Shown piece by piece: positions 3,926-23,702 of a stretch of 64,000 nucleotides of DNA. The DNA is from Leptolyngbya sp. PCC 6406 (lineage in GTDB: Bacteria; Cyanobacteriota; Cyanobacteriia; Phormidesmidales; Phormidesmidaceae), in assembly GCF_000332095.2 (NCBI RefSeq), contig NZ_KI913949.1:124545-188544 (forward strand), read 5' to 3'. The notes under the pieces are model-generated. The model did no database searches. It was not told the DNA's origin and was given only the letters and a program-made list of their open reading frames with translations. Position 1 is the first letter of the stretch. Every line of letters starts with the position of its first letter. The position numbers and the translations under genes were made by a program.

Positions 3926-4345
3926 ATGCTAAAGATTACCGACCATACCGCCATTCCCCTGGGAGAGATTGAACTCAGTGCCGTGCGATCGCAGGGAGCA
4001 GGGGGCCAAAACGTGAACAAAGTCGCCACCGCCATCCACCTCCGGTTTGACATTCACGCCTCCTCCCTATCTCCCCTGTACAAAGAGCGCCTACTCAATC
4101 TAGGGGATCGGCGCATAACCAAAGATGGTGTCATCATCATCAAAGCCCAGCAGCACCGCACCCAGGAGCAAAATAGAGAGGATGCTCTCCGTCGTCTCCA
4201 GGACTTAATCCAAAGCGTTACGGTCACGCCCAAGGCGCGCAAACCGACGAAGCTTTCTCGGACTGCCCAGAAAAAGCGCCTTGACCGCAAAACTAGGCGG
4301 GGGCAGATTAAGGCGCTGCGGGGCAATATTCAGCAGGAATTGTGA
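3926..4345 (+). CDS. arfB: Peptidyl-tRNA hydrolase ArfB (YaeJ), ribosome rescue
   Basis: A 139-residue class I release-factor-like protein. The catalytic GGQ lies at residues 26-28 in SQGAGGQNVNKVAT. A basic C-terminal tail (residues ~105-139, KARKPTKLSRTAQKKRLDRK) is the part that in the E. coli protein inserts into the empty mRNA channel. It lacks the stop-codon recognition domain of RF1/RF2, and its length is normal for ArfB. Its role is hydrolysis of peptidyl-tRNA on ribosomes stalled without a stop codon. It stands alone, 101 bp from the divergent antiporter gene. Confidence 0.92.
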   Translation: MLKITDHTAIPLGEIELSAVRSQGAGGQNVNKVATAIHLRFDIHASSLSPLYKERLLNLGDRRITKDGVIIIKAQQHRTQEQNREDALRRLQDLIQSVTVTPKARKPTKLSRTAQKKRLDRKTRRGQIKALRGNIQQEL

Positions 4346-4373
4346 TGGGGAAACCGCTCAAAGCCTCTAACGA

Positions 4374-4395
4374 ACAAGGGGCTTAAGCCCCTTGT
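4374..4395. repeat. ACAAGGGG/CCCCTTGT palindrome
   Basis: A 22-bp perfect palindrome centred on CTTAAG, just downstream of arfB. Near-identical copies lie at 25720-25745, 29234-29255, 32673-32694 and (imperfect) 63410-63431. All are intergenic and most are close to gene 3' ends. Role is terminator-like or the core of a mobile repeat. Confidence 0.8.
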
Positions 4396-4423
4396 CCTAA
4401 CCTGGATAGCCATTACCATAACG

Positions 4424-4554
4424 GGGTATCAACTCAAAGCGAGACAAATCTCGTGGGGAGGAGTTAGGAGCCAGAATCTAGGAGAGTACTGGCTTCTGAC
4501 TCCTGACTCCTGAATTCCTCGGAACCAATATGGTCTCGGCTTACGTTGATACCC
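4424..4554 (+). mobile_element. MITE family 1 with perfect 8-bp target duplication
   Basis: A 131-bp element from GGGTATCAAC to GTTGATACCC, with imperfect terminal inverted repeats extending about 24 bp (left GGGTATCAACTCAAAGCGGG, right complement GGGTATCAACGTAAGCCGAG). It is flanked on both sides by CCATAACG (4416-4423 and 4555-4562). The interior can fold on itself (ggagttaggagccagaatc against its near complement). No coding capacity. Confidence 0.85.
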
Positions 4555-4579
4555 CCATAACGTCCACGTCTGTCTCAGG

Positions 4580-5386
4580 TTATTCCGGTAGAGGGGTGGC
4601 AATAGGCGGCAGGATACGAACCGCGACGGTATTCTCCAGGGAGCCGATACCCTCGACTTCAATGCGAATGCGATCGCCAACTTGTAGGGGACCTACCCCT
4701 GCCGGTGTCCCCGTCAGCACCACATCCCCTGGCAACAGAGTCATGACCTGACTAATGTAGGCCACCAGTACCTCTGGCTTGAACACCATGTCACTGATGG
4801 GTGCCGATTGTACCGGTTCCGGTAGATCATTCAAAAAGCTCTGAATCTGAGCTTCTGGATTGAGTTCCCGCACAATCCACGGCCCCAGGGGGCAAAAGGA
4901 GTCAAATCCCTTGGCACGGGTCCACTGGGCATCTCGCCGCTGGAGATCCCGTGCAGTGACATCATTGGCGATGGTGTAGCCCCAAATCTTCTCGCGAGCT
5001 TCGGCCTCCGTACAGTCCACACACAATTCCCCAATTACCAGGGCTAATTCCCCTTCATAGTCCACCCGCTGGGACTGGGGTGGATAAAAAATAGAGGCCC
5101 GATCAGCGGTGACGGCGGTAGAGGGCTTGATAAAAAGCAGCGGTTCCGTGGGCAGATCGCCCCCCATCTCTGCGGCGTGTTTGGCATAGTTTTTGCCGAC
5201 TGCGATCACTTTAGAAGGGGCGCAGGGGGCCAGTAGTTGATAGCTATCGGCAGGCAGTGTGGTCTCGGTGACCTGCCCCTGGAGCCAGGGGGGTGCATCC
5301 AAAACCTGAATGCTGCGATCGGGTTGTAAAAGACCGTAATGTAGTTGACCCGACTGGGACTGCACTCGAACGTACCGCTGCGCCAT
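4580..5386 (-). CDS. Fumarylacetoacetate hydrolase (FAH) family protein
   Basis: A 268-residue member of the FAH/2-hydroxyhepta-2,4-diene-1,7-dioate isomerase superfamily. Signature stretches: KVIAVGKNYAKHAAEMG (~59-75), the metal-site segment DYEGELALVIG (~108-118), the IWGYTIANDVTARDLQ motif (~134-149) and GDVVLTGTPAGVGPLQVGD near 220-240. Members cleave or decarboxylate beta-diketo acids such as oxaloacetate or fumarylpyruvate using Mg2+ or Mn2+; the exact substrate cannot be read from sequence. Start is ATG 5386. A family-1 MITE sits 25 bp past the stop. No operon partner is evident. Confidence 0.88.
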   Translation of the reverse strand: MAQRYVRVQSQSGQLHYGLLQPDRSIQVLDAPPWLQGQVTETTLPADSYQLLAPCAPSKVIAVGKNYAKHAAEMGGDLPTEPLLFIKPSTAVTADRASIFYPPQSQRVDYEGELALVIGELCVDCTEAEAREKIWGYTIANDVTARDLQRRDAQWTRAKGFDSFCPLGPWIVRELNPEAQIQSFLNDLPEPVQSAPISDMVFKPEVLVAYISQVMTLLPGDVVLTGTPAGVGPLQVGDRIRIEVEGIGSLENTVAVRILPPIATPLPE

Positions 5387-5541
5387 ATAACCCCTTCTAA
5401 ATCCTGGTATGATTGTAAATCCTTGCCTTTACCCAGAAACGTTGGTTTTGTCATGGCTTTCGGCTTGCGATCGCGGTAGCTCTAGTCAAAATACCACCCT
5501 GGAATCAAGGCCATTAGCCCATAAGGATCCAATTCATCATC

Positions 5542-5907
5542 ATGTCGAAGAAGTTTTTGTACGAGACCATGTATATTCTGCGGCCCGACATCGGGGAAGA
5601 AGCCGTAGATGAGGCCATTGGTAAATTCCAGGCGATTGTTCAAGAGCAGGATGCTGAAATCCTAGAGACCCAGCACCGGGGCAAGCGCCGCCTTGCCTAC
5701 GACATCCAGAAGCACCGGGAAGGTATTTATATTCAGATGGATTATGTCGGCCCTGGTAAGGTCGTGGCGGTTCTGGAGCGGGCGATGCGTCTCAGTGAAG
5801 TGGTTCTGCGCTATCTCACCGTGAAGCAGGACGTAGATGCTCCTGAGGTGGAGGATTTGCCCGTTGATGCCTCTGATTCTGTGGCCCCCCCAGTGGGTGC
5901 CGCCTAA
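5542..5907 (+). CDS. rpsF: 30S ribosomal protein S6
   Basis: A 121-residue protein with the S6 fold signature: [20 protein letters not shown] at the N-terminus, [20 protein letters not shown] in the middle, and [18 protein letters not shown] near 85-103. The C-terminal tail ([20 protein letters not shown]) is acidic and Pro-rich, as is common in cyanobacterial S6. It binds S18 and 16S rRNA in the platform of the small subunit. It is monocistronic here, with a hairpin 28 nt after the stop. The ATG at 5542 gives the standard MSKKFLYE N-terminus. Confidence 0.96.
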
Positions 5908-5934
5908 GGGATCACGCCCCCCTGTTTATCCCTG

Positions 5935-5958
5935 AAATCCCCCAACTCTGGGGGATTT
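5935..5958 (+). terminator. rpsF terminator hairpin
   Basis: AAATCCCCC and GGGGGATTT arms around a 6-nt loop. The downstream sequence is only moderately T-rich (TTTCGTGTCTTTGG). Confidence 0.7.
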
Positions 5959-6022
5959 CGTGTCTTTGGACTTTCGTGTCTTTGGACTATTGATACCCGT
6001 CACAAAAACTAGACACAAAAAC

Positions 6023-6160
6023 TAGTACCGCAGGGCGTAAATCAGCACACCATTGCCGCATCACCCCAACATTTTCCGGTCCCCTCGCCCCCTGGGAGAG
6101 GGCGAGGGGCCGAGGTGTAACACGATCAAACGGTCAGAGTATTTGCACCGCCCAGTACTA
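6023..6160. mobile_element. TA-flanked IS630-type MITE (GTACCGCAGGGCGTAAAT)
   Basis: The element runs from GTACCGCAGGGCG to CACCGCCCAGTAC (6025-6158) with TA duplicated on each side. The interior carries the block TTTTCCGGTCCCCTCGCCCC, also seen at 42459-42610 and, rearranged, at 24232 and 38065. It inserted between copies of CTAGACACAAAAA, which remain on both sides. The ends resemble those of the IS630 element in this window. Confidence 0.75.
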
Positions 6161-6178
6161 GACACAAAAACTAGACAC

Positions 6179-6205
6179 AAAAAAGGGGTAGGCATTGCCT
6201 ACCCC
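6179..6205 (-). terminator. Intrinsic terminator, probably for the hli gene
   Basis: GGGGTAGGCA and TGCCTACCCC form a 10-bp stem; read on the minus strand it is followed by TTTTTTGTG. It lies 220 nt past the stop of the hli gene at 6425. Confidence 0.7.
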
Positions 6206-6424
6206 CAACTTCTCTGACTGTAGTTTCCTAAGATTGCCAAGCTATTGGCTAATAGCAGGCTGGGGGGAACAGCTCTGGCAAGATCAAAACCCAGGCTATT
6301 CCCAAAAAAAGAACGACATAGCACTCGCAGTCCGATTGGGACAACATTAGGAGCCAATTTGCTTGCTCACCAAGTATCCGAAAGGTTCTCGGTGTCTAAA
6401 GCAAATTGGCCAAAGCTATATCAA
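6206..6424. other. 3' region of the hli gene
   Basis: No gene seen. It contains an 11-bp inverted repeat (CCAATTTGCTT 6354-6364, complement 6399-6409) that could structure the 3' UTR of the hli transcript. Confidence 0.4.
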
Positions 6425-6568
6425 TTACATCAGGCCCAGTTGAGACAGGATGCCTTGGCCGGTTAGCAGCTCAGTGGCTAGGCCAATGGTGAAGCCCAGC
6501 ATGGCCAGACGGCCATTCCAGTTTTCTGCGAATTGAGTAAATCCAAATTTGGCTTGCTCTTCAGTCAT
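6425..6568 (-). CDS. hli: High-light-inducible / small Cab-like protein (47 aa)
   Basis: A 47-codon gene found by reading the minus strand: MTEEQAKFGF, then the chlorophyll-binding helix AENWNGRLAMLGFTIGLATE, and the tail LLTGQGILSQLGLM. The ENxNGRxAMxGF signature with Glu and Arg/Asn ligands is diagnostic of single-helix Hli/Scp proteins of the thylakoid membrane, which bind chlorophyll and carotenoid during stress and during PSII assembly. Length fits the short HliA/B/C type. AGAGG about 9 nt upstream of the ATG is a good ribosome site. The gene sits between FIST and rpsF, with its own promoter region in 6569-6665. Confidence 0.93.
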   Translation of the reverse strand: MTEEQAKFGFTQFAENWNGRLAMLGFTIGLATELLTGQGILSQLGLM

Positions 6569-6665
6569 GGTGGAGACCTCTTGTACTTCAAGGGATGAGA
6601 TGAAGGGCGTTTACCACCCTTGTAAAGACATGTTAATTATTTTTTCGCGAATGTGCAACATTTCT

Positions 6666-7922
6666 TCAAAAGTCATCCTGAGAACTGGGCTGACGGCAGA
6701 GGCCAAACACAGAGGTATAGCCGTGGAGGAATGTGGTGCCGCCGATGGGACCAATTTCTCCATTGCAGAAGAATCCACTGAGGGGCACTGGGCCAAGGTG
6801 ATGGTGAAAGAGTCGGGAGTCAAAGTTGGCCTCTTGGTAGAGCCCATGGCCCCGCCCTACACAGGAAAACATGAGGGCTCCCACTGGGGCGCTGGCGGTG
6901 GACTGGTGGGCGTATTGCTGGAGAAGTACTTCTAGATCCTCTGCTGAGGTTTCTGCGTCCCGTAGGTGGAATTGAATACGCTGTCCTGGACGGACGCGAT
7001 CGCCAATTGCGATCGCGCCTACCCGAGGGTCTACCCCCAGCAAGTTGCGGATCAAAAAGTCTCCAGGGCCAAGGGTAATTTTGAAGCCATCCTGGGCAAT
7101 GCCGATGAACAGGGAATGCTGGGCCAGTTGCCGATCTCGATCGCTGAGATCATTCAGCATGGCCTTGAGGCTGGCAAGGGCGGGCTGGGGATCACGATCG
7201 AGGATGTCTGGCGGCTCCAGCTCCAGCAAAATATTGCGCTCGGCGGCGGCCACCCGGTAGTGCTGGCCAATAGGACGACAGCCCTGGGCCACAATCGCCT
7301 CCAGAACCACATGACCCGATAGAGCCAGACCCACAACCCCTTCGGTGTAGTAAGTGCGATCGCAAAAGAGCCCACCATGGCGCTGCCAACTGCTGCCACT
7401 GGCTAGCCCCCCCACTTTCACCGCCTTGGGGTAGGCAAAATCCAACCCCTGCAACAGGTCATTGACCCCCGAAAAGAAGGGATCCGCCAGCACAATAAAC
7501 TGAGGATCCACCCTCGGATCCACCCCCACAGCCTCTACCCAGGCATCGGGAGGGCTATCCAAATCCGGCAAGTCCGTTTCCTTGAGATAAAAGCTCTGTA
7601 CCGTCACCCCCGGCAGAGTGGCCAAACACAAGCTGAGGGCCGGGGCATCCTCCACCTCCAGAGCATCCTCTTCCGAATCCATCCCCACCACGCCACCACC
7701 GCTACAGCCAATCAGCGTGGGAATCTCCAGAGCAGTTTGCAGCAGCGGTAGCACCCGCGAAAATTCACTCGCAAAGGCCGAGGAAATAAAGACTAACCCC
7801 AAATCTGGGGCTGCCGTCAGTTGTCTCTGAGTGCGGGCAACCACCTCCTCCACAGCAGCCTCTAGGGAGACTTGGGTTGAGATCGCACTCACCCACTGCA
7901 TGGGCTCGGCAGGTGTGGGCAT
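6666..7922 (-). CDS. FIST N / FIST C sensory protein
   Basis: A 418-residue soluble protein with FIST_N (about 30-215: LVFISSAFASEF, IPTLIGCSGGGVVG, KAVKVGGLASG) and FIST_C (about 225-400: ILLELEPPDILDRDPQPAL, RVGAIAIGDRVRPGQRIQFH, CVGRGHGLYQEANFD, SGFFCNGEIGPIGGTTFLHG). FIST domains are predicted ligand sensors, possibly for small molecules such as amino acids, and are usually fused to or adjacent to signalling modules; here the protein is stand-alone. Cys in SGFFCNGEIGP is conserved in the family. Start is ATG 7922. Confidence 0.9.
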   Translation of the reverse strand: MPTPAEPMQWVSAISTQVSLEAAVEEVVARTQRQLTAAPDLGLVFISSAFASEFSRVLPLLQTALEIPTLIGCSGGGVVGMDSEEDALEVEDAPALSLCLATLPGVTVQSFYLKETDLPDLDSPPDAWVEAVGVDPRVDPQFIVLADPFFSGVNDLLQGLDFAYPKAVKVGGLASGSSWQRHGGLFCDRTYYTEGVVGLALSGHVVLEAIVAQGCRPIGQHYRVAAAERNILLELEPPDILDRDPQPALASLKAMLNDLSDRDRQLAQHSLFIGIAQDGFKITLGPGDFLIRNLLGVDPRVGAIAIGDRVRPGQRIQFHLRDAETSAEDLEVLLQQYAHQSTASAPVGALMFSCVGRGHGLYQEANFDSRLFHHHLGPVPLSGFFCNGEIGPIGGTTFLHGYTSVFGLCRQPSSQDDF

Positions 7923-8560
7923 GATCGCGACCTCCGTATAAACCTCGCACTGACGATTGTAGGCAGGTTAGTGGGCTCTAGTTAAACTCCTGTTTCAGAT
8001 CTGATCTGAAACCCAGGTCATAGATAGCCGCCCCCAACCCTAGAAATGCGTCAGCAATGGCCCTTCTAGCAAATTCCATTTTCTTCCATTTTGCCGTGGG
8101 GGTATCATCTCTGGAATCTTCCTGGACCCTGGAAGCCTCTGGACTCCTGCTGAGGGATATCAACTCAAAGCGGGACAAATCTCCTGCCTCCTGCCTCCTG
8201 TCTCCCTCGAAGCCAATATTGTCTCAGCTTACGTTGACCCCCCTTCCGAAGGACCGATGACTTCCTTGATGGGGCGGTTCACCGCAGTCGTCGGGGCGGA
8301 TGTCCTCACATAGGCCAAAGCAAAAGGCACGGTATGGTCTAGTTAAATCCTATTTGCCTGTATGGCTGAGCTAAAGGATTCATGAATATAGGGTGCTGCC
8401 TGGACAAGCTCCCCTATGATCCAGACTAGAATCTAGACCGACATCCAGTTTGGCTGGGGTTTACACTGATTCAGGGACAATCGTCCCGTTGTCTTAATGC
8501 TGTCATACTACGGCTTCCTGGCTAGCCAGAAAGGCTGTGGAACGAGTTCAAAGAGGTCCT
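7923..8560. other. Intergenic region between divergent FIST and cp12 genes
   Basis: No gene recognised. It contains a near-palindrome (7992-8012, GTTTCAGATC / GATCTGAAAC around one base), a degenerate family-1 MITE (8154-8241), and about 320 bp upstream of cp12 that must hold its promoter. The palindrome lies about 70 bp upstream of the FIST start and could be an operator; that is a guess. Confidence 0.5.
8154..8241 (+). mobile_element. MITE family 1, shortened copy
   Basis: It starts GGGATATCAACTCAAAGCGG and ends CTTACGTTGACCCC. The centre is shorter than in the 131-bp copies, and no target duplication is visible, so it is an older, decayed insertion. Confidence 0.7.
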
Positions 8561-8785
8561 ATGAGCGATATTCAAGAAAAAATCCAGCAGGAACTGAAGA
8601 GCGCCCGTGACGCTTGTGATGTCTCTGGTAGCAATTCCCAAGAATGCGCAGCAGCGTGGGATGCGGTCGAGGAGCTACAGGCGGAAGCAGCCCACCAGCG
8701 GAACCAGCAGAAACCTCAGACCTCCCTTGAGAAGTTCTGTGATGACAATCCCGAAGCGGCGGAGTGTCGGATTTACGAAGACTAA
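8561..8785 (+). CDS. cp12: CP12 Calvin-cycle regulatory protein
   Basis: A 74-residue intrinsically disordered regulator. The N-terminal half has the Cys pair in DACDVSGSNSQECAAAWDAVEE including the AWDxVEE core. The C-terminal half has the second pair in KFCDDNPEAAECRIYED. In the dark, oxidised CP12 ties GAPDH and phosphoribulokinase into an inactive complex; thioredoxin releases them in light. All four cysteines are present. I take the ATG at 8561, preceded by AAAGAGG, rather than the upstream GTG at 8537, because it gives the usual MSDIQEKI start. Confidence 0.95.
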   Translation: MSDIQEKIQQELKSARDACDVSGSNSQECAAAWDAVEELQAEAAHQRNQQKPQTSLEKFCDDNPEAAECRIYED

Positions 8786-8821
8786 AGCCCTTGGCAATGC
8801 CAGATGTGGAGACGTGCATAC

Positions 8822-8969
8822 TAGGGGCTGTGGGCAATCAAAGCTAGATTTCTTGCTATAGAGCGGTTACAGTCCCTAGCTTGCTTCAGTAGGGCGGGCG
8901 TGGTCATACCTACCTACCCCGCAAGACCTACCCCGCAAGGGTTTCTCCATTAATTGTCCACACGCCCTA
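8822..8969 (+). mobile_element. MITE family 3 (TAGGGGCTGTG...CACGCCCTA)
   Basis: A TA-bounded element beginning GGGGCTGTGGGCAATCAAAG and ending TTGTCCACACGCCC. The centre holds TACAGTCCCTAGCTTG and a duplicated CCTACCCCGCAAG. Other copies: 12755, 17090, 24891, 35743 (reverse) and 63356 (partial). TA target and non-coding interior suggest a Tc1/IS630-type MITE. Confidence 0.8.
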
Positions 8970-9019
8970 GTTCTGCCAACGGGCAGCATCCGTGCGTCTC
9001 CAGATTCCATCCCAATGCT

Positions 9020-9373
9020 ATGACTCTTCAGGTTTACGGCATTCCCACCTGTAGCACCTGCAAAAAAGCGATCGCATGGCTCGATCGCCAGGGTATCGCC
9101 TACGAATTCATCAACACGAAGGAAGCTCCACCCGCCCTAGCACTGATCCAAGACTGGGTTGCCACCCTAGGGGCTAAACCGATGCGTAATACCTCCGGGC
9201 AGTCTTACCGTGCCCTCGGGGAGGAAAAGCAAACCTGGTCTGATGCGGACTGGGTTGCCGCCTTTGCCCAAGATGCCATGCTGCTTAAGCGTCCCCTATT
9301 TGTCCAGGATGGCACAGCGGTACTAGTCGGCTTCCGAGCCACAGAAGCGCAATTGCAGGCCATCCTAAGCTAG
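9020..9373 (+). CDS. ArsC/Spx family thioredoxin-fold protein
   Basis: A 117-residue protein beginning MTLQVYGIPTCSTCKKAIAW, with the active-site CxxC at residues ~11-14. The rest matches the ArsC/Spx/MgsR family (YEFINTKEAPPALALIQDWV, LKRPLFVQDGTAVLVGF). Family members are arsenate reductases or redox-responsive regulators; the CSTC form with a second Cys is more typical of the Spx/YffB/MgsR side than of classical ArsC. The start is placed at ATG 9020, because upstream codons of the longer frame come from the MITE at 8822-8969. No strong Shine-Dalgarno is visible. Confidence 0.82.
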   Translation: MTLQVYGIPTCSTCKKAIAWLDRQGIAYEFINTKEAPPALALIQDWVATLGAKPMRNTSGQSYRALGEEKQTWSDADWVAAFAQDAMLLKRPLFVQDGTAVLVGFRATEAQLQAILS

Positions 9374-9419
9374 TGCCGATACCCTCATTGACTGACTGAC
9401 AAAAGTCTCTACATCCTTG

Positions 9420-9536
9420 GGGTATCAACTCAAAGCGGGACAAATCTCGTGGGGAGGAGTTAGGAGCCAGAATCTAGGAGAGTACTGACTCCTGAATTCC
9501 TCGGAGCCCATCTTGTCTCGGCTTACGTTGATACCC
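9420..9536 (+). mobile_element. MITE family 1 copy
   Basis: A 117-bp copy with intact ends GGGTATCAAC / GTTGATACCC, closely matching the 4424-4554 copy internally. Flanks (CATCCTTG vs CGATGCCC) do not match, so one flank has changed or the element recombined. Confidence 0.8.
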
Positions 9537-9555
9537 CGATGCCCTATCCGATGTC

Positions 9556-10089
9556 CTATTCAGAGAGGGTAAAAGAGTCCAGAAAGCCCTGGACATCTAC
9601 CTTGCCTTCTTGATCCTTAGGGACAACCACCAGTACTTGATACAGCCGATTATCCACAAGATAAAGACGGGCATTGACCGTTGCTGCTGCCCCTGTCTCT
9701 GTCTGGGTATCGATAACCAGGGCTCGGCCCGGATTGCCCGCCAATTCCACTGGGTTTTCGCTAATTAGAGTTCCGCCCACATTATTAACCGCTCCATCAC
9801 GACTGCCATCCAACATGGCGGTGGGATCACTCTGGGCCACAATCTCGCTGGGGTAGTCTGAGTAGGCCACCACATAGGCTGCCTCAGGCTCCTCTGCGGT
9901 GAAGGTGTAGATATCAATGTTACCCACCTGAGTTTCGACTGACTGGCTCGCCTCACTCAAGGTGACGGGGGTAGAAATGGCAAAGCCTCCGGTTTCAGAG
10001 GTGAATTCCTGGATTTCGGGGGCCGCCGTATTGCAGGCCGTCGCCATGAGCAAACTCAGGAGTAAGAGACGTAGGGAGGGCTTTTTCAT
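9556..10089 (-). CDS. Predicted lipoprotein, function unknown
   Basis: A 177-residue protein with an N-terminal signal (MKKPSLRLLLLSLLM) and lipobox ATAC at ~17-20, so it should be lipid-anchored and periplasmic or thylakoid-lumenal. The mature part (FAISTPVTLSEASQ, YVVAYSDYP, GNPGRALVIDTQ, RLYLVDNRLYQVLVVVPKD, VQGFLDSFTL) has the beta-rich pattern of PsbP-fold-like or DUF1795-like proteins, but I cannot assign a family firmly. No cysteines beyond the lipobox. A family-1 MITE lies 19 bp past the stop. Confidence 0.75.
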   Translation of the reverse strand: MKKPSLRLLLLSLLMATACNTAAPEIQEFTSETGGFAISTPVTLSEASQSVETQVGNIDIYTFTAEEPEAAYVVAYSDYPSEIVAQSDPTAMLDGSRDGAVNNVGGTLISENPVELAGNPGRALVIDTQTETGAAATVNARLYLVDNRLYQVLVVVPKDQEGKVDVQGFLDSFTLSE

Positions 10090-10314
10090 AGGTCAATAGA
10101 TCAGTCAATGATCAATAGATTTGCCGGAGAACGGTCTTGATTGGGCGGTTTTGGAGGGCGGTGGAGCCGTGCAGCGTCCCCAGGGAAAAACGACCCAGGA
10201 GATTACAGACTACGGGGTGGAATACGAGGTGCGATCGCAGGATTTCGGATTGTGTCTCATCCGGACTAGACCCGTGAAGGGAAGAAATGAAAGGCCAGTC
10301 CCCCGATTAAAACG

Positions 10315-11886
10315 ATGTTGGCTTCTTTTTCCCCCGTAAATCGATTGCCCTATGCTCAACCCTGGCCAGCGCCGGAAACAACCGATCAGCACTGGCGGAC
10401 CCTGCTGGGGGTTATACCCCTGACCGAGGCAATTCCGAGCCCATTAATATACCCTCCCCTTTCCCAGGGAATATGGCGCGGGTTTTGCAACTGGATGACC
10501 CTATCCTTTGTCGCCGTCTGTACCACCAGCACCGCAGCACTGGTAGCTTACAGCAGCTTAATTCACATTGCCCCAGAACTACCCTGCGATCGTCTGATGG
10601 GACGATGGATTTCCGATCGCACTCGGTTTTCCTGCGCCCAAGAAGTAGCTAGCGGTGGCCAGCTCCCGGATTTAGCAGCAGCCCTAGAAATCATCGCTGA
10701 CTGGTCTCCCAGCCACCCCCTCTTTGGGGAGATGCGCCCCCTCCTGAGCCAGTGGTCTAGTCCCCTTCTGCGGGCCGCTCAAACTAGGGCCGCTCAAGCA
10801 GACCTGGATGGAGCCCTGGCCCTAGGGTTTCAAATTCCCCCCATCAGTCCAGACTATGGCACCGCTCAACACCAGATTGAGATCTGGCAGCAGCTCCGCT
10901 ATGCCCAAGTGCATATCCCCTATGCCCAAGCCCAAACTGCCCTCCAACAACAGGACTGGGCTGGAGCATTTCAGGCGCGACAGGCCATGGAGTCTCTAGA
11001 GGGGCAGGTCTGGCAAACGGGCCTAGTGCCGCGTCTGACCCACCAAATCGAACTAGAACGGCGGGCGAGTAAAACTTGGACCGAGGCCAGCCATCTTGCT
11101 TTTTTAGGCGGAGATGACAACTTAGGATCTGCGATCGCCCTAGGCAGCACCGTGCCCCCAGATGCCTATCTCTGGCAATCAGCCCAGGTCCAACTAGATG
11201 CCTGGAGTGATGAATTGCTAGACCGGGCACTAGAGTACTGGTATGCCGGAGAACTCAACCGAGCCCTACAGTTAGCCGAGCAAGTGCGCCAGTATCCAGG
11301 CCGTGTTGAAGCCGCCCAAGATTTGATCTGGCTCTGTCAGGCACGGCAGTTGGCCCTAGCCAGTCTGCGAGAAGAGGGACAATCCACCACTGCCCGAGCC
11401 GTAGGTCTATACCCAGCCCTCTTAGTTGCCCAACAGATTAGCCCTGAGAGCGATCTTCATCCCCAATCGATCGCAACAGCAACCACTTGGCGAGGGCATC
11501 TTCAAGAACCTACTGCCCCTCTCGTATCGTCCGAGGTTTCTCCACCTGATAGGAACAACGCAGCTACGCTCTCCAATGCAGTCCTCAAGGAGCACCCTGA
11601 GCCCAGTCCAGAGGGGAATCCAGCAGTCGCTGAAGATGCTAGTTCAGATTCCCGCGTCAGTTCCCGCGTAAATTCCAGCCCCAGCCCCGACCGAGAGGCA
11701 GCCCTAGAAACCTCACCCAGCTTCAACCCTGACCCCTTCATTGCCCCAAAAGTCCCCTTACCCTTTGCTCCCGAAAGTGGTCTGTATGGCCCTCTGAGAC
11801 TGCGCATACCCCAGTTTTCCAAAACTGACAAAGACTCCTTGGACCCTAACCCCTTCCGCTCTGACAGCTTTACCACCAGCCCCTAA
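10315..11886 (+). CDS. Conserved membrane-anchored protein with helical repeats
   Basis: A 523-residue protein of unknown function. One hydrophobic segment lies near 60-85 (MTLSFVAVCTTSTAALVAYS). Residues ~110-370 are Ala/Leu/Gln-rich helices resembling TPR-like repeats (LRAAQTRAAQADLDGALALG, AQTALQQQDWAGAFQARQAM, LNRALQLAEQVRQYPG). A low-complexity Pro/Ser-rich tail (~390-523) follows. The hairpin-like helices suggest a protein-binding role outside or at the membrane. Start at ATG 10315 has no clear ribosome site. No operon partner. Confidence 0.75.
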   Translation: MLASFSPVNRLPYAQPWPAPETTDQHWRTLLGVIPLTEAIPSPLIYPPLSQGIWRGFCNWMTLSFVAVCTTSTAALVAYSSLIHIAPELPCDRLMGRWISDRTRFSCAQEVASGGQLPDLAAALEIIADWSPSHPLFGEMRPLLSQWSSPLLRAAQTRAAQADLDGALALGFQIPPISPDYGTAQHQIEIWQQLRYAQVHIPYAQAQTALQQQDWAGAFQARQAMESLEGQVWQTGLVPRLTHQIELERRASKTWTEASHLAFLGGDDNLGSAIALGSTVPPDAYLWQSAQVQLDAWSDELLDRALEYWYAGELNRALQLAEQVRQYPGRVEAAQDLIWLCQARQLALASLREEGQSTTARAVGLYPALLVAQQISPESDLHPQSIATATTWRGHLQEPTAPLVSSEVSPPDRNNAATLSNAVLKEHPEPSPEGNPAVAEDASSDSRVSSRVNSSPSPDREAALETSPSFNPDPFIAPKVPLPFAPESGLYGPLRLRIPQFSKTDKDSLDPNPFRSDSFTTSP

Positions 11887-11945
11887 TCCCTCATGCTGGT
11901 CTGGAAATTCTCCCTGCCCCGCAGCAGTGATGGTGGCGAGACTCT

Positions 11946-12026
11946 GGGTATCAACTCAAAGCGGGACAAATCTCCTGACTCCTGAATTCCTCGGAACCAA
12001 TATTGTCTCGGCTTACGTTGATGCCC
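11946..12026 (+). mobile_element. MITE family 1, short copy with 8-bp target duplication
   Basis: An 81-bp internal-deletion copy: GGGTATCAACTCAAAGCGGG ... CTTACGTTGATGCCC. It is flanked by GAGACTCT at 11938-11945 and 12027-12034, a perfect 8-bp duplication. Confidence 0.85.
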
Positions 12027-12451
12027 GAGACTCTGGAGCAAGATGATTCCAAAACGTGCCAAAAATTCTCAAATCATTTGTTAACTAGGATACAAAACCA
12101 GGCGGATGAAGCTTGCTAAAACCTTTTGGACAAGTTTGGGCAAGAGAAAACTCTATTTTAGGAGGGCCTGATATTTTCTTGACTCAATAGAGGATGGGCC
12201 AATCGCAAACCTGTCCTACTTTTCTCTATTCCACAGCACTTTTGGATAAAACTGTGACTTATAAACCCGACAATCGCAAAAAACAGCGCTAGCATTTATC
12301 CGTAGGCAAAATTTTCATTGGAGCTTTAGCGAGCCCCAACCATTCTTTGTCCGAGCTTTACTTAAATCCAGAATGGGTTTCCTATTCTTTTAAAAGAGCC
12401 ACTTGATAAATCTTGAAATATTGGTTCTTGCAGATTTTGAGCTGACTCTTC
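12027..12451. other. Intergenic, no gene seen
   Basis: AT-richer spacer upstream of the Mo-nitrogenase C-terminal-like gene. No ORF with family resemblance, no obvious hairpin; presumably contains that gene's promoter and leader. Confidence 0.4.
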
Positions 12452-12757
12452 ATGATTAGTTCTGCTTCCAGCTCCAAGGGTGCCCCCCAGTACCCGATTC
12501 CAGACCTGCTTCAGCCTCTTCGTAATTGGATTAACACCTACTCCATTCAGCATCCTCACCATGCTCGCCGCCTTGCCCATCTCATTCCCGCCCAGTGCCC
12601 CTTTGAACAGGACATCATGGTGTGGGGATACCGGGTTGCCCACGTCCCCCCCCTGTGTAAGCTGAATCCCCTCTACGATGAGCTGATGGGCCTGCGGTTT
12701 AGAGCCCTCTGTTATCTGGCTGACGAGTGCGGTGAAGACATTTCAGCCTTGATCTAG
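12452..12757 (+). CDS. Mo-dependent nitrogenase C-terminal-like protein
   Basis: A 101-residue protein matching the cyanobacterial family named after a nitrogenase C-terminal region (PF06967-type). Diagnostic stretches are LIPAQCPFEQDIMVWG and the C-terminal block PPLCKLNPLYDELMGLRFRALCYLADECGEDI. Despite the name it occurs in non-fixing species and its function is unknown; the conserved cysteines could bind metal. The stop codon TAG (12755-12757) is formed by the left end of a family-3 MITE, so the native C-terminus may have been changed slightly. Confidence 0.82.
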   Translation: MISSASSSKGAPQYPIPDLLQPLRNWINTYSIQHPHHARRLAHLIPAQCPFEQDIMVWGYRVAHVPPLCKLNPLYDELMGLRFRALCYLADECGEDISALI

Positions 12758-12884
12758 GGGCTGTGAACAATCCAAGTCAGATTCCTGGTTATGGGGCGAT
12801 TACAGCCCCTGGATTGATTCAGTAGGGCGGGCGTGGTTATGCCTACTCCGCAAGGATTTCCCCGTCAATTGTCCACACGCCCTC
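12755..12884 (+). mobile_element. MITE family 3 filling a convergent gene junction
   Basis: The element runs from TAGGGGCTGTGAACAATCC to CAATTGTCCACACGCCCTC. The right TA has decayed to TC. It spans the whole gap between two convergent genes: its left end is the stop codon of 12452-12757, and its right end encodes the last residues and stop of 12865-13839. Confidence 0.82.
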
Positions 12885-13839
12885 GCACCGGATGCCCTAC
12901 TGCTGTGAGCAACCCTAAAGGCCCTATGGCCTTTAGGCGTTTCAGCTCCTCGGCATTTCGCACCAAAAGCGACCCAGCATACCCCAGGGCGTTAACGGAA
13001 ATCGTGTCGTAGCGGTCCTGGGTCCGAGGTACCGCCAACATCCAGCGACGGGTGACGAGGAGATTGTAAGGACGGTCGGGGATCGCTGCCTCTAGGGTGA
13101 GGCCAATGGCTGCCATCAGTTGTTGGTAGTGGCGAAGTAGGATAGGCGCGATAGTCCTGGCCATAGATTCTTCTGAAGAACTGGTGTTGCCCTTCAAAGC
13201 TATAACGGCTTCTCCAGCATCCCAGTTCACCCCTAGTCCCACGGCCCAAGCCTGAAAGGGAACATTGAGGGGAAATACCTTCCCTACGGGATGGTCTACC
13301 TGGGTGGCAGTGACCAAACTCTCTATGGGCAACGTTGGTCCAGCCGGGGCAATGGGGAGTGGTACCAATTGCAAATGCTTGTGATGCTGGCTGGCTCCAG
13401 CCGCTTGGCCGCCATTGTAAAAAGCCAATCCGTCAATGCCCGCCAAGCCTATGGCCAAGGCAGCGAAATCTGTCTCTGTGAGCCAGGTATCTTGGGCCTC
13501 GTAATGACGGGTCACTATCAAGAGATGATGATCTACCACATTGAACTTGTTAAGGAGACAGGTGTGGCTCTCGGAAAAGTGACCCACCCACAGGTCTAGC
13601 TCATAGGGCAGAAAGGGATTAGACGGCTGGGTAGCCCCATCTTTCCGGGCTTTGATCTGGGCTATATCCTTGCGGATCAGATTGGTTAAAATCCTCACCA
13701 AGAAGGGAATACCACCTTCTTCTAGTAGGGTGAAATCTGTGGCGATGGACTGGAGCGCCCCGGAGGCGATGGCCCGGTCCGTTGTCTGCTGAGCCGCAGT
13801 CCACAGGTTGCCGGGGGTGAGGATAGCCGCTGAATCCAT
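12865..13839 (-). CDS. ATP adenylyltransferase / Ap4A phosphorylase
   Basis: A 324-residue HIT-superfamily enzyme. Recognisable parts: LPYELDLWVGHFSESHTCLLNKFNVVDHHLLIVTR (~98-133), GLAFYNGGQAAGASQHHKHLQLVPLP (~160-185) containing the catalytic HHKHLQ triad, and a C-terminal domain with RPYNLLVTRRWMLAVPR. It phosphorolyses diadenosine tetraphosphate to ADP and ATP, limiting alarmone levels. The native C-terminus appears replaced: the final codons GRVDN and the TGA lie inside the MITE at 12755-12884. Start ATG 13839. Confidence 0.88.
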   Translation of the reverse strand: MDSAAILTPGNLWTAAQQTTDRAIASGALQSIATDFTLLEEGGIPFLVRILTNLIRKDIAQIKARKDGATQPSNPFLPYELDLWVGHFSESHTCLLNKFNVVDHHLLIVTRHYEAQDTWLTETDFAALAIGLAGIDGLAFYNGGQAAGASQHHKHLQLVPLPIAPAGPTLPIESLVTATQVDHPVGKVFPLNVPFQAWAVGLGVNWDAGEAVIALKGNTSSSEESMARTIAPILLRHYQQLMAAIGLTLEAAIPDRPYNLLVTRRWMLAVPRTQDRYDTISVNALGYAGSLLVRNAEELKRLKAIGPLGLLTAVGHPVRGRVDN

Positions 13840-14004
13840 GGGTGGGGACTGACGAATGCCTATGGGTAATGTAGCAGTAGTGGGGCGGTCCCAAGTTGGT
13901 CCCCATGGGATCGCTCGTCCCGCGATAGGATTAAGATTCTAAGAGGCACCAATCCCAGCATGGAAAAAAGTCTGGGCCTGGGCCGAGTAGTAGCCGAACA
14001 TTAA

Positions 14005-14259
14005 ATGGATCCTGCTATGACGATTGTGAGCCTTGTGAAGATTATTTGGGCGGTCTCCGCCGTTGGGCTGACTATCTTGGTCTTGCTCCACAGCCCCAAG
14101 GGGGACGGTTTGGGGGCTTTGGGGGGGCAGGCTCAGTTGTTCACCAGCACCAAAAGTGCTGAAATCACCCTCAACCGCGCAACTTGGACGCTGACAGTCC
14201 TGTTTATGGGGCTTACGGTCATTCTCAGTGCAGGCTGGTTGAATGTCCCGGCAGGATAG
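14005..14259 (+). CDS. secG: Preprotein translocase subunit SecG
   Basis: An 84-residue protein with two transmembrane helices (~8-28 and ~58-76) separated by the SecG loop SPKGDGLGALGGQAQLFTST. It is the auxiliary subunit of the SecYEG channel. A second in-frame ATG at 14017 (MTIVSLVKIIW) is the more typical start; the first gives four extra residues. The IS630 element begins 17 bp after the stop. Confidence 0.93.
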   Translation: MDPAMTIVSLVKIIWAVSAVGLTILVLLHSPKGDGLGALGGQAQLFTSTKSAEITLNRATWTLTVLFMGLTVILSAGWLNVPAG

Positions 14260-14304
14260 ATGAACCAGCGCCCTAGTACTGCTTGGCGGAAGTGGCCAAG
14301 GCAT

Positions 14305-14910
14305 TTATGCGACCAAGGGCTTACCCGTGTAGTTCCACTTGAAGGGCTTAGCCATGGTGCGATTGAAGTAATCGACAAACGCTAAAATCTTCGCCTTGAG
14401 TTGGGCTTGACTGGTAAAACTCGAACGTCGGAGTAGCTTACGTACCAGGATGGAGAACCAAGGCTCAATTTGATTGAGCCAGGAGCAATGCTTGGGGGTG
14501 AAGTGAACGACCAGTCGATGGCTGGGGTCGCTCAAGAACGCCGCTCGGGTCGCCATAGACAGGAGAATGCCCGTCTTCCCTTTCTGGCCCAGATGAATCG
14601 GTTTTTCCTCGCGTTCCGCCACCAGTCGGACGAGAGATTCCGATTGATGAGTGTTGAGGCAATCCATGACCAGATGAATCTTGGAGGCATCTGGAACTTG
14701 GGCCAGTAAGGCTCTGAGGTGACTCTCGAGGTCTTGCTCGGTGCGGGTGTCTCCCACGGTGGCCTGATCCACCTGTCCGGTAGCGACATTGAATGAGGCA
14801 ATCAGGGTTTGAGTGCCATGGCGAATATACTCAAACTCAATGCGGGTACAGCGTCCCGGCTTCATGGCGATGTCAGGCATCGTCCGTTCCAGAGCCTGGA
14901 TTCCCGTCAT
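14305..14910 (-). CDS. IS630 transposase, C-terminal DDE part
   Basis: A 201-residue frame starting MTGIQALERTMPDIAMKPGR, with the second and third catalytic regions: LVMDCLNTHQSESL (Asp) and FTPKHCSWLNQIEPWFSIL (Glu), typical of IS630 DDE transposases. The first catalytic Asp (SLDEMTGIQ) is encoded just upstream of this ATG, so the frame alone would be inactive. Translation probably requires a -1 shift from the upstream frame. Confidence 0.88.
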   Translation of the reverse strand: MTGIQALERTMPDIAMKPGRCTRIEFEYIRHGTQTLIASFNVATGQVDQATVGDTRTEQDLESHLRALLAQVPDASKIHLVMDCLNTHQSESLVRLVAEREEKPIHLGQKGKTGILLSMATRAAFLSDPSHRLVVHFTPKHCSWLNQIEPWFSILVRKLLRRSSFTSQAQLKAKILAFVDYFNRTMAKPFKWNYTGKPLVA

Positions 14911-14927
14911 CTCATCCAGGCTGAAGG

Positions 14928-15506
14928 TCAGCTCGCCGTGTTCGGCACGAGTGGCAGCCTGTTCGTAGACCTGGCAAATGTCTTTGACTTTGTCCTCGAA
15001 GTTAGGGTCGGGGGGGGGGAGAGCCAGTAACGGCTCTGGTGGGGTTTGAGGTCAGCCTCGGCCAACAGTCGGCCCACATGACGGGGACTGATACTCTCGA
15101 CAATTCCCTGCTTGCTCAGTTCATCGGCCAGTTCTCCAGGGGTCCAATGACTGATGGGGCGGCCATACTGCTCGGGCGGTGCACAAGCTAGGGCATAGAG
15201 TTGCGTGATTTGTTCGAGGCTAAAGGTAGCCGGAGCCCCGGGACGAGGGACATCCTGTAGGCGCTCTTCCACAGCGACCTGTTGTTGACTCAACTCCAGC
15301 CAACGCCCCCGCCAGCGGCGACTCATCTCTTTGCTGACCCCCAAGTCTCGGGCGATTTCGCCATGGCCTTTGCCCTCATCAGCTGTGAGGATAATCTTGG
15401 CGCGCAAAGCGAGCTGCTGTGACGTCCGCTGACGTCGAATCAATTGCTCTAAGTCGCTCCGCTCCGTTTCGCTCAAAGTGAGCCTGGCGGCAGTCAGTCT
15501 AGCCAT
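14928..15506 (-). CDS. IS630 transposase, N-terminal HTH part
   Basis: A 192-residue frame with helix-turn-helix segments (RAKIILTADEGKGHGEIARD, LGVSKEMSRRWRGRWLEL) and the winged-helix linker PISHWTPGELADELSKQG. It departs from the family at YWLSPPP, exactly at a run of ten C (15010-15019). Reading on in the -1 frame gives PDPNFEDKVKDICQVYEQAA...LTFSLDEMTG, joining the downstream frame. Either programmed slippage or a mutation in the homopolymer separates the halves. Confidence 0.87.
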   Translation of the reverse strand: MARLTAARLTLSETERSDLEQLIRRQRTSQQLALRAKIILTADEGKGHGEIARDLGVSKEMSRRWRGRWLELSQQQVAVEERLQDVPRPGAPATFSLEQITQLYALACAPPEQYGRPISHWTPGELADELSKQGIVESISPRHVGRLLAEADLKPHQSRYWLSPPPTLTSRTKSKTFARSTNRLPLVPNTAS

Positions 15507-15568
15507 TGTAGAAAAGTCCTCTTTACCCTACCTCTCAATGGTAAGGTCATTTCAGCCACCCAGTACTA

Positions 15569-15770
15569 GTACTCTGGGGCGGAAATCCTGTGATCATTTC
15601 CCCTAGGCGTTGCCTTTCTGCGGTGCATTGCTTCGCGTGGGCGAAGCCACGCCTTAGCGTTATTCACCCTACGAAACTTCTTTACTGGTTCCCAGGCTCT
15701 GCCTGGGAAGCCTCACCGAGGCTCTGCCTCGTCGTTAGAAAACGGTAAGGCTATTTAAGCGGCCCCGTAC
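15569..15770. mobile_element. GTAC-ended MITE next to IS630
   Basis: About 202 bp from GTACTCTGGGGCGGAAATCC to TTTAAGCGGCCCCGTAC, TA on both sides. The interior carries two hairpins (GGTTCCCAGGCTCTGCCTGG; CACCGAGGCTCTGCCTCG) and the block TGCGGTGCATTGCTTCGCG. The same element in reverse, interrupted twice, occupies 23439-23960; pieces recur at 60.92-61.0 kb. Confidence 0.75.
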
Positions 15771-15835
15771 TAGTCGCTGAGAGGGGGAGGCTGAACAAGA
15801 CTTTCCGGCCCCTCTTTTTCCAGCCAGCTAGCCCC

Positions 15836-15914
15836 GTAGGCTGGGTCAAGGTACGCTGACCCAGCCTTGATTATCACCCCTTTGCTGGGTCGCCCTTCGG
15901 TTGACCCAGCCTAC
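15836..15914. repeat. GTAGGCTGGGTCA inverted repeats
   Basis: Outer arms 15836-15848 and 15902-15914 are perfect 13-bp complements, with further GACCCAGCC/GGCTGGGTC copies inside. A similar hairpin lies at 41133-41167. REP-like, possibly terminating the minus-strand lipoprotein gene. Confidence 0.7.
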
Positions 15915-15981
15915 GCAATGATCGCTTGGTATGGGTTGACACACTTCTGCCTTCTTATTTCTGCCTTTCTGTACTAGCCCT

Positions 15982-16638
15982 TCACCAGTCTCCGGAGACG
16001 GCTGAGAGGGCATCTCCCTCGGCGGTGACGATGACAAGGGGCAGCGCTTCGTTAGCCTCGTAGCGCTCGAATTGGACAACTTGAACCCCTTGGCCTGTGG
16101 GGACAACTTTAAGGAGATACTGATTTTCGGACCATTCTAAGCTAACGATGCGATGGCCAATGATCCAGATCTCTGCCATCTCTCCCTGGTTGATGGCTTC
16201 GGGGCGATCGCCTTCGTAGCAGCTCCACATTTCATCGGCGATAGTCCAAAGGCCGCTGAGGTTAATGGGCTCGGTCCGGGCGCTGAGGCCGTAGGTCGTG
16301 AAGGAAATGATGGGCTGGTTCCAGAATTTTTCCGCCAGACTGCGGAGGGGATCTTGGTTGAGATCGTCACCGTATCTTAGGTTTTGTCCCATTTCTTGCT
16401 GCTGGTCCTCTAGGGCGGGACGTACCCAGTCGGGGACTTCGCTACATACTTCGTAGGCTACAACAGCTTTCTCGGGGGGTGTTGCGGGTTTATTGGTTGC
16501 GGCGGTTTGTACCACGGAGGCGGCGGCCTTGGTATCGGGCAGGGCTCCCCAGTTGCTCTGGGGACATCCCCCTAGGCCCAAGCCTACCGCCACTAGGCTC
16601 ACTGCTGCTAACCATTGCTGATATGTCTGTATTGCCAT
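15982..16638 (-). CDS. Predicted lipoprotein, function unknown
   Basis: A 218-residue protein with signal MAIQTYQQWLAAVSLVAVG and lipobox LGGC (~22-25). The mature part is acidic and aromatic-rich (VCSEVPDWVRPALEDQQQEM, SFTTYGLSARTEPINLSGLW, EMWSCYEGDRPEAINQGE), ending QFERYEANEALPLVIVTAEG. I recognise no domain. The two mature Cys could form a disulfide. Start ATG 16638 places the signal peptide correctly. Confidence 0.72.
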   Translation of the reverse strand: MAIQTYQQWLAAVSLVAVGLGLGGCPQSNWGALPDTKAAASVVQTAATNKPATPPEKAVVAYEVCSEVPDWVRPALEDQQQEMGQNLRYGDDLNQDPLRSLAEKFWNQPIISFTTYGLSARTEPINLSGLWTIADEMWSCYEGDRPEAINQGEMAEIWIIGHRIVSLEWSENQYLLKVVPTGQGVQVVQFERYEANEALPLVIVTAEGDALSAVSGDW

Positions 16639-17577
16639 GGGGGCTGCTCTTTATCTGCGACCAATTGAGATAATTGTGTGGGCACGTTTCCTGGTCATAC
16701 CGGGGCAGGCTCGGTATCCAACCCCCTATCTCAGCTCTGGATCTGGGATCGGGAATCGGATGGTATTGGGTAAGGATGGAGTCGATCCCAGGCGTGAAGC
16801 CCTATACCAACGGTCTAGATACTCGCGATCGCGAGCCTGAACTGTTGAAAGTGGCTGTCCGCAGCGCTAACTAGGGCTAAGACCCTATCTAGAAACTTTC
16901 CCAATCCCTTGATATGCAGCAGCCGAAACAGGGTATTCGGATAGGTTCTAAGCCCCAGGAGGCTAAGAGCGGAATTGCGCCTCACACCTTCCTTTACAGG
17001 GCTAACCTATCTGGATCCGAGTGCTTTGGAGACTGTTTTCCTAGCGATTATGGGGATAACCGACCGTGACCTGCGGTGAATTCCTGAACTAGGGGCTGTG
17101 GACAATCAAATCCAGATTCCTGGTTATGGGGCGGTTATAGCCCCTAGCTTGATTCAATAAAGCGGGCATGGTCATGCCTGCCCGGTGAGGGTGTCGCCGT
17201 TGATTGTCCATACGCCCTTGGAGCTCCGATTGCCAAGGACAATCGGATTTCCTAGGAAATAGCTTGAAGTAGGGGCCGGTAAGGTTGGCATTTTCGCTGA
17301 CAGAGCAAATCCCTAGGAAAATTCGTGAATTTCGGAGGTGACAGTAGCTTTTGGACGGGTTGCGCCTCTGGTTTACTGTTGAATTACATTGCCTTAGCCA
17401 GCATTTCCATGGCTTGTAAGCCTTACCAGGGAAATTCATAAAAGTGCCATAGAACTAGAATAGCGGCTGATTCGATGCTTGTTTAGTAAAAATAATGACT
17501 CTTCATTAGGAAAGTCTGTGATCCCCAGAAAATCGCCCTAGAGATCGCGGCCAAAGCGCCCTGAACCTGCCCGCTTT
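16639..17577. other. 940-bp stretch without recognisable genes
   Basis: It contains a family-3 MITE at 17090-17218. Short ORFs within it have no family resemblance. The remainder (16640-17085) has several short inverted repeats but no match I recognise to 6S, tmRNA or RNase P RNA. It could hold an unannotated small RNA or a decayed gene. Confidence 0.4.
17090..17218 (+). mobile_element. MITE family 3, divergent copy
   Basis: TAGGGGCTGTGGACAATC at left and TTGATTGTCCATACGCCC at right; the right TA is lost. About 129 bp, aligned end to end with the copies at 12755 and 24891. Confidence 0.8.
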
Positions 17578-18033
17578 TTAGTAGGCGGGGGCGGCAAGGA
17601 AGGAGATCACTAACCCCAGAACTGATCCGGCGATCACCTGAACTGGGGTATGACCCAGGAGTTCCTTGAGACGGGCTTCGTTAAACTCGGGTTTCTCGCT
17701 GAAGAGCTCGTCAATGATTTGGTTCAGGATTTTGGCTTGCTTGCCCGCTGCTTGTCGGACCCCCGCTGCGTCGTACATGACAATGACGGCGAAGACCGTG
17801 GTGGCGGCAAAGAAGGGACTATTCCAACCCAAGGTTTGACCGATGCCACAGGCGAGGGAAGTAACTAGGGCGGAATGGGAACTGGGCATCCCCCCAGTTC
17901 CCACTAGTACCCTCAGGTTCACCTTACGGTGCTGAACCAGTTCTACAACCACCTTTAGAACTTGGGCCAAGAGGCAAGCGGCCAAGGCCACGATAAGGAC
18001 GCGGTTTTGGAGGATGTTGTTAAGGTCTTCCAT
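17578..18033 (-). CDS. Divergent PAP2 family membrane protein
   Basis: A 151-residue protein of the DUF212/divergent PAP2 family, found across cyanobacteria, plants and firmicutes. It shows the phosphatase-like motif GTGGMPSSHSALVTSLA (~45-61) and the terminal LGHTPVQVIAGSVLGLVISFL. Hydrophobic segments lie at ~11-30, ~60-88 and ~132-148. PAP2 enzymes dephosphorylate lipid pyrophosphates or phosphatidic acid; whether this divergent branch is catalytic is not known. Located 19 bp downstream of a MITE and in the same direction as crtE and folD. Confidence 0.88.
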   Translation of the reverse strand: MEDLNNILQNRVLIVALAACLLAQVLKVVVELVQHRKVNLRVLVGTGGMPSSHSALVTSLACGIGQTLGWNSPFFAATTVFAVIVMYDAAGVRQAAGKQAKILNQIIDELFSEKPEFNEARLKELLGHTPVQVIAGSVLGLVISFLAAPAY

Positions 18034-18054
18034 GGGTTCTGGTTGATCGTGCTA

Positions 18055-18180
18055 GGACTCGACAGCATAAATAACTCACATATTTGATGGACCGGGAGCC
18101 CTCGCGAGACGAGGAATTCCTTTTCATCCTTCTGCCTGCTACGCACGGGCACAGCCCTACTTACTTCTGCCTTTCCGTAC
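18055..18180. mobile_element. MITE at the 3' end of the GGPP synthase gene
   Basis: A relative of the 1229-1326 element: GGACTCGACAGCATAAATAA at one end and TTCTGCCTTTCCGTAC at the other, flanked by TA (18053-18054, 18181-18182). The right TA is part of the crtE stop codon TAG. Confidence 0.7.
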
Positions 18181-19100: not shown

Positions 19101-19145
19101 ATTCTGGGTCCGAGTTGCCGTTCTAATGCCGTATGGGTCCATATT

Positions 19146-20036: not shown

Positions 20037-20169
20037 CGCAGGAAAGGGGCACATCCACGGGTGAACGATCTAGTATGGAGCCCAATGGGTTGCTCAGCGG
20101 CTCTCGACTCTAGGGTGTGGGTTGCCCTAGTAGTGTCTCAAATTTCGGGAATTTAGGGATTGCTAACTT

Positions 20170-20607: not shown

Positions 20608-20679
20608 CCAGCCTGTGGGATGTCCCTTTCGGAACCAAAAATGTCTTAACCCATCACCAGCCTAAAAATAGCAATAGCA

Positions 20680-21831: not shown

Positions 21832-22152
21832 TTTCAGTGCTGCCTAATCCCAGAGTTAGCTGGTATCAGGTGGAAGGTTTCCAACGGCAGCCAGAGGTGT
21901 TCTCCTGACGAAGAATTCATAGAACTTTTACATGAATGAGTGGATACAAGCGCTGAGCCCGAACATCCACGCACTACCCTAGAAATTATGGGTGCAAAGA
22001 AGCGGTATAAAAACTGACGATCTCGGGGCTAGGACTCTTTAACCTAGAGAATGTATCTTAGGATTCCGATGGGTTGGGTCTAACCGATTACGATCCTCAG
22101 GTATTTCAATAAAGATGATAGGTCATGAAGCCCAAGTAGGGGCCTGAGCACC
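21832..22152. other. Intergenic, promoter region of the next gene
   Basis: No gene or clear repeat seen. It presumably contains the promoter for the 428-residue gene at 22153. Confidence 0.4.
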
Positions 22153-23439: not shown

Positions 23440-23509
23440 TACTCTGCTGCGTAATTCTTGCCCTCTAGTACTCTGCTGCGTAATTCTTGCCGTTTTCTAA
23501 CGACGAGGC

Positions 23510-23640: not shown

Positions 23641-23702
23641 GACGAGGCAGAGCCTCGGTGAGGATTCCCAGGCAGAGCCTGGGAACCAGAAAAGAAGTTT
23701 CG

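Follow-up and report, generated by a model that had tools for sequence, protein, structure and literature searches.

Short tandemly repeated repetitive (STRR) sequences are heptamers of cyanobacteria, and insertion sequences of the ISL3 family duplicate 8 bp of their target and have a D..D..E order in the transposase. Prokaryotic MITEs, among them Nezha in cyanobacteria, are described as short, noncoding elements with TIRs and target duplications that are present in dozens of copies and depend on a partner transposase working in trans (PMC10969869). The BrickBuilt MITE of Porphyromonas gingivalis contains tandem repeats within the element and occurs in intergenic copies, and no transposase is reported to have been demonstrated as its mover (PMC4596501).

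The MITEs of Leptolyngbya sp. PCC 6406 reported here are ordinary in kind, and what is new is a recurring heptad core together with a transposase family that is unrecognised in protein annotation, although it may possibly have an entry under another name in an insertion sequence catalogue. Compared with prokaryotic MITEs in general, they differ in this heptad hairpin core and in a partner family that carries no transposase label. BrickBuilt likewise has a tandem array inside the MITE, but its repeats are 23-bp direct repeats rather than 7-bp repeats in complementary arms, and it is not known to have a DUF6399 partner (PMC4596501). The core resembles STRR sequences in being built of tandem heptamers, but arrays of the PCC 6406 type were found only inside MITEs (0 of 13 outside them in ~395 kb, a sample chosen around MITEs). 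Searches of the literature returned no mention of DUF6399, and of 65 papers with the end string GGGTATCAAC the ten listed were unrelated by title.

MITE copies in the window and across the genome

The window, which is the whole stretch of 64,000 nt that was analysed out of a genome of 5.78 Mb in three contigs, contains all five of the elements named in the preliminary description, with one start corrected from 8154 to 8155. The features are as follows.

4416–4423, unstranded: left target duplication CCATAACG, by direct reading and flank comparison
4424–4554, + strand: MITE copy 1, 131 bp, ends GGGTATCAACTCAAAGCGAGAC (left) and GGGTATCAACGTAAGCCGAGAC (right) around a heptad hairpin core
4555–4562, unstranded: right target duplication CCATAACG, by direct reading and flank comparison
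8155–8242, + strand: MITE copy 2, 88 bp, degenerate ends GGATATCAAC / GGGGGTCAAC, core collapsed, flanks agreeing at 5/8 and thus without duplication
9420–9536, + strand: MITE copy 3, 117 bp, perfect ends, flanks agreeing at 1/8 and thus without duplication
11938–11945, unstranded: left target duplication GAGACTCT, by direct reading and flank comparison
11946–12026, + strand: MITE copy 4, 81 bp, with most of the heptad arms lost
12027–12034, unstranded: right target duplication GAGACTCT, by direct reading and flank comparison
23502–23509, unstranded: left target duplication GACGAGGC, by direct reading and flank comparison
23510–23640, − strand: MITE copy 5, 131 bp, in reverse orientation relative to the other copies
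23641–23648, unstranded: right target duplication GACGAGGC, by direct reading and flank comparison

Flank comparison confirmed the perfect 8-bp duplications that had been read at three copies (CCATAACG, GAGACTCT and GACGAGGC). The ends described as common to the family are not strictly identical, as three of the five copies have at least one end departing from GGGTATCAAC, and GGGCATCAAC is read in some copies. The recurrence of the ends exceeds chance: across the window, GGGTATCAAC occurs 15 times at up to one mismatch, compared with 3.39 (sd 2.01) in shuffles. The window also contains three tandem repeats: a 126-bp unit (5.3 copies, 88% matches) at 1–674 that continues beyond the window start, a 29-bp unit (2.3 copies, 100% matches) at 23425–23491, just upstream of MITE copy 5, and the 13-bp unit CCCTAGTATTTGG (five copies, 98% matches) at 35868–35932.

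Genome-wide, allowing at most three mismatches, a 22-bp end pattern was matched 142 times, compared with a single match for the reversed control, and at the same tolerance 70 left ends and 69 right ends were found while their reversed controls gave no match. Apart from a lone right end that lies on contig 2, these are chromosomal and resolve into 58 opposed end pairs and 22 single ends, or approximately 80 copies in all. Many of the single ends are, as judged by eye, diverged or cut MITEs. The 58 pairs span 81–153 bp without a transposase gene, and 43 of them overlap no open frame of at least 120 aa. Inverted ends, 8-bp duplications and genome-wide copies bear out the identification of these elements as MITEs.

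The 8-bp flanks of the pairs are perfect in 18 cases, agree at 7/8 in six and at 6/8 or fewer in 34, while perfect flanks of other lengths were found in two pairs at 2 bp, in none at 3–7 bp, in one at 9 bp and in none at 10–13 bp. When each left flank was set against every other pair's right flank, perfect agreement occurred in 2 of 3306 combinations and agreement at 7/8 or better in four, versus 24 of the 58 real pairs. The lack of duplications elsewhere, which the preliminary description had named as the observation that would speak against it, was thus found for 34 of 58 copies but not for the other 24. The two perfect control matches fit the octamer TAATCCTG being common to two copies; this octamer houses the MITEs at 737018–737148 (131 bp) and 2399814–2399951 (138 bp) of G000:C1, a double use that may reflect either a preferred target or coincidence. 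Mean divergence from the consensus was 5.4% for copies with perfect flanks, 9.5% for those at 7/8 and 8.2% for the remainder, and the 24 copies at 7/8 or better differed in divergence from the other 34 (p = 0.023). At the locus of the copy at 9420, two genomes of the same genus were too diverged to yield an exact empty site, the sequence aligning at 69–76% on either side of the MITE with 54 bp in G048 versus 234 bp in the window. The ends were not found at two mismatches in three same-genus genomes that were 61–87% complete.

DUF6399 insertion sequences in related genera

The statement that the window holds no transposase with such ends extends to the whole PCC 6406 genome according to searches of it. 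DUF6399 was not found there, the best match of an 11-protein profile (E = 0.30) being taken as chance. Nine of the 23 single ends (22 chromosomal and one on contig 2) lack a plain MITE core, and for these no second end was found under 5–6 mismatches within 10.5–11 kb. From the 8-bp duplications the preliminary description had predicted an autonomous partner that duplicates 8 bp, and this prediction was answered in sister genera by a DUF6399 insertion sequence with matching ends.

Named genomes were scanned with an exact pattern, which returned 16 stretches. One of these, L214 (JAIXVO010000571.1), has a 554-aa open frame enclosed by opposed ends that are separated by 1.75 kb; the frame matches the Pfam family DUF6399 (6.5e-51) and has a weak match to a helix-turn-helix. 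Twenty stretches were fetched, of which 12 could be delimited at both ends and, with L214, make up 13 elements; for L250, L257–L260, L266 and L267 at least one end was absent or ambiguous (in L257–L260 two ends and a duplication were never found together), and L268 lay outside the analysis. The delimited elements are 1744–1759 bp long, typically encode a protein of ~534 aa and have a perfect 8-bp duplication in 10 of 13 cases, the exceptions being L261 (4/8), L263 (3/8) and L214 (5/8). Five copies in G015 differ at 0–6 of 1756 bases, a near-identity that is a sign of recent movement.

The left and right ends of the MITE each match the corresponding end of L263 (5′ and 3′, respectively) at 22/24 positions. 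However, the right MITE end also fits the 5′ end of L214 at 23/24, so that the side-specific matching of ends is suggestive only. As the best agreement between MITE and insertion sequence is 22–23/24, and the closest element, L263, is among those without a duplication, the exact partner of the PCC 6406 MITE lies outside the sampled elements. Among 63 genomes of the host family, 17 encode DUF6399, and the ends occur in 16 of these compared with 14 of the 46 without it (p = 6e-6, uncorrected for species relatedness).

Taken together, these patterns make it highly likely that the PCC 6406 elements are MITEs whose 24-bp ends are, or formerly were, recognised by a DUF6399 transposase from an insertion sequence of ~1750 bp. 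We infer that DUF6399 moves the MITEs in trans and once acted in the PCC 6406 lineage. The transposase would bind the 24-bp ends and excise the element, which would then be joined to a target cut with an 8-bp stagger, and the 8-bp duplications would result. The insertion sequence would since have been lost from PCC 6406, or would only ever have been a visitor, leaving orphan MITEs to decay while their hairpin core gains and loses whole heptads. A system in which both trans-mobilisation and heptad expansion could be followed is offered by G022, taken as Nodosilinea nodulosa PCC 7104. On NZ_JH976537.1 this genome carries a DUF6399 element at 2172355–2174104 (duplication GGGCAGCA; 528-aa open frame with a later start than in its relatives), and it also carries a heptad-core MITE at 171474–171609 (duplication GGAGTTTG).

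The heptad hairpin core

Between their ends the MITEs consist of a heptamer hairpin, one arm repeating GGAGTCA or GGAGTTA and the other arm its complement. Identity at lag 7 was 0.472 versus 0.245 in shuffles, as measured on the 55 copies that reach 117 bp and without the three shorter ones. In folding comparisons with shuffles, z-scores were −5.2 to −7.5 for the three window copies that retain all or nearly all of the core, −4.1 for the 81-bp copy and −0.97 for the degenerate 88-bp copy. It could be argued from such folding, seen in four of the five window copies, and from the 43 of 58 copies that lie clear of open frames, that the hairpin is transcribed and useful to the host (as a terminator or in RNA stability), so that copies are kept beyond mobile debris. 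We regard this as unlikely, as long inverted repeats fold by construction, no Rfam match was found in window positions 4000–24000, and only one of 29 consensus pairs showed a two-sided change (35 of 58 copies, from the 131- and 138-bp classes), so that covariation within the genome gives selection on an RNA no support.

The two lengths first noticed in the window had been attributed to internal deletion. This remains apt for the 81- and 88-bp copies, which resemble larger deletions. In contrast, 44 of the 58 copies are 124, 131 or 138 bp long and 50 fall in one class (5 modulo 7), indicating that most differ by whole heptads and not by a single internal deletion. The same lengths bear on the possibility that the MITE arose from an insertion sequence simply by internal deletion, with further deletions producing its length classes one after another. 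Such an origin would account for the ends that both kinds of element have in common and for the loss of most of the core in the two shortest window copies. Past base 24, however, the resemblance stops: MITE positions 25–50 are identical to three insertion sequences at only 3–6 of 26 positions (three on the left, four to six on the right), which is the level of chance. On these alignments the core is no remnant of any sampled insertion sequence, and derivation by deletion appears unlikely.

Related MITEs with the same periodicity occur in other genomes, and heptad cores recur across several genera. In G015, an 8/8 duplication flanks every one of the 12 copies sampled, which are 149 or 156 bp long, although eight of the 12 have identical flanks and the set therefore represents five independent insertions. 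Those eight loci (L293, L295, L296, L298, L299, L300, L302 and L303) constitute one MITE insertion in eight copies, with flanks identical over 100 bp or more on one side and more than 200 bp on the other, suggesting that the MITE is carried within a different repeated element that is itself probably mobile. Duplications were 8/8 in three and 7/8 in two of eight MITEs sampled from G012, and among eight more short pairs, taken from other genomes, they were 8/8 in two and 7/8 in three. One of the MITEs with an 8/8 duplication (L182) lies in a genome that carries a DUF6399 gene, and G015 likewise carries the gene.

Among lags 2–15, identity was highest at lag 7 in G015 (0.593, five copies), in G012 (0.443, seven of eight copies) and in five single copies from other genomes (0.415–0.481), and a single end, L178, had a lag-7 identity of 0.349 (z = 1.8). 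The dominant heptamer varies, being GAAGTCG in G015, GAAGTCA in G012, GAAGCCA in L182, GGAGCTA in L188 and GGAGCCA in L190, with L191 and L173 fitting the pattern less well. The arms stay complementary even though the heptamer differs from genome to genome, which suggests copying from arm to arm, or joint expansion of the two. L185 and L196 have unrelated cores and lacked the lag-7 peak; these elements (L196, G050:C130 1501–1661, with a perfect 8-bp duplication; L185, G027:C24 1336–1522, without one) have the same ends around another core, a palindrome of the TTCGACAGGCTCAGGGCGAACGG type.

Nature and spread of the DUF6399 proteins

Five acidic residues (D143, E144, D197, D217 and E449) are invariant in all 14 aligned DUF6399 proteins, down to 26% identity, and D143, D197 and E449 are candidate catalytic residues. 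From their sequences and the elements that enclose them, the DUF6399 proteins are very probably transposases, with a chemistry that is likely to be DDE. A domain of unknown function would thereby become a very probable transposase with a testable end sequence and cut spacing, and entries labelled 'DUF6399 domain-containing protein' would be relabelled. The single-sequence structure model of the L214 protein was poor (pLDDT 42.6) and does not support a DDE fold, and a sequence search of the PDB matched a helix-turn-helix only (Z-DNA-binding domains, E = 0.00036), its other matches being taken as coiled-coil or chance.

The DUF6399 proteins may be kin to ISL3 transposases. Weak matches to Pfam DDE_Tnp_ISL3 were obtained for five of 11 DUF6399 proteins (best E 0.0043, 17.3 bits versus a cut-off of 23, covering residues 186–268 around the second D) and to the NCBIfam ISL3 model for two of 11 (best E 0.0074), so that the 11 members fall short of both cut-offs. 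Small hhalign alignments against five ISL3 transposases gave only a short helix-turn-helix match at 7.8% probability and lent no support to wider homology. The ISL3 family is alike in its 8-bp duplication (as in 10 of the 13 DUF6399 elements), its D..D..E order and this similarity near the second D, but the ends of the resident ISL3 elements (GGCTCTTCCGG) differ from those of the DUF6399 elements. Mobilisation of the MITEs by a resident ISL3-family insertion sequence, for which one could cite 16 ISL3-model matches in the genome (ten with a shared top score and 423-aa open frame) and the weak ISL3 signals in the DUF6399 proteins, is very improbable, as the resident right end is GGCTCTTCCGGTCTGGC, unlike GGGTATCAAC (five copies compared, the left end being imprecisely delimited), and the MITE ends fit DUF6399 elements instead. 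The ISKra4/ISMich2 group has GGG ends and an 8-bp duplication, and no ISKra4 model was among the NCBIfam matches listed for the 11 members (25 of 26 families).

DUF6399 was detected in two of 386 genomes drawn from across the phylum, in one of them above the cut-off. Homologues occur in five plasmid records, where those annotated are called 'DUF6399 domain-containing protein' or hypothetical. No DUF6399 relative was found in phage records, and in viral contigs two stretches matched a pattern, neither encoding a relative. Ends were searched for and not found in Crinalium L273 and Acaryochloris L275; in Acaryochloris L272 the 3′ end matches and the left end and duplication are not clean. A distant gammaproteobacterial homologue in Thiodictyon (29.4% identity in tblastn, 26% in alignment) lies in an element of 1916 bp with inverted repeats matching at 19/22 and a perfect 8-bp duplication, GTCCAACC. 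It is put forward tentatively, as a reading about which we remain slightly sceptical, that DUF6399 constitutes an insertion sequence family of its own, ranging from cyanobacteria to gammaproteobacteria and sustaining in trans a long-lived, non-autonomous heptad-core lineage that persists across genera and in which the heptamers (GGAGTYA, GAAGTCA, GAAGTCG and GAAGCCA) change in concert between arms, for example by arm copying at the palindrome.

As a separate observation, the ten PCC 6406 ISL3 copies that tie for the top score and have a 423-aa frame (e.g. G000:C1 424962–426065) represent an element that was apparently recently active.
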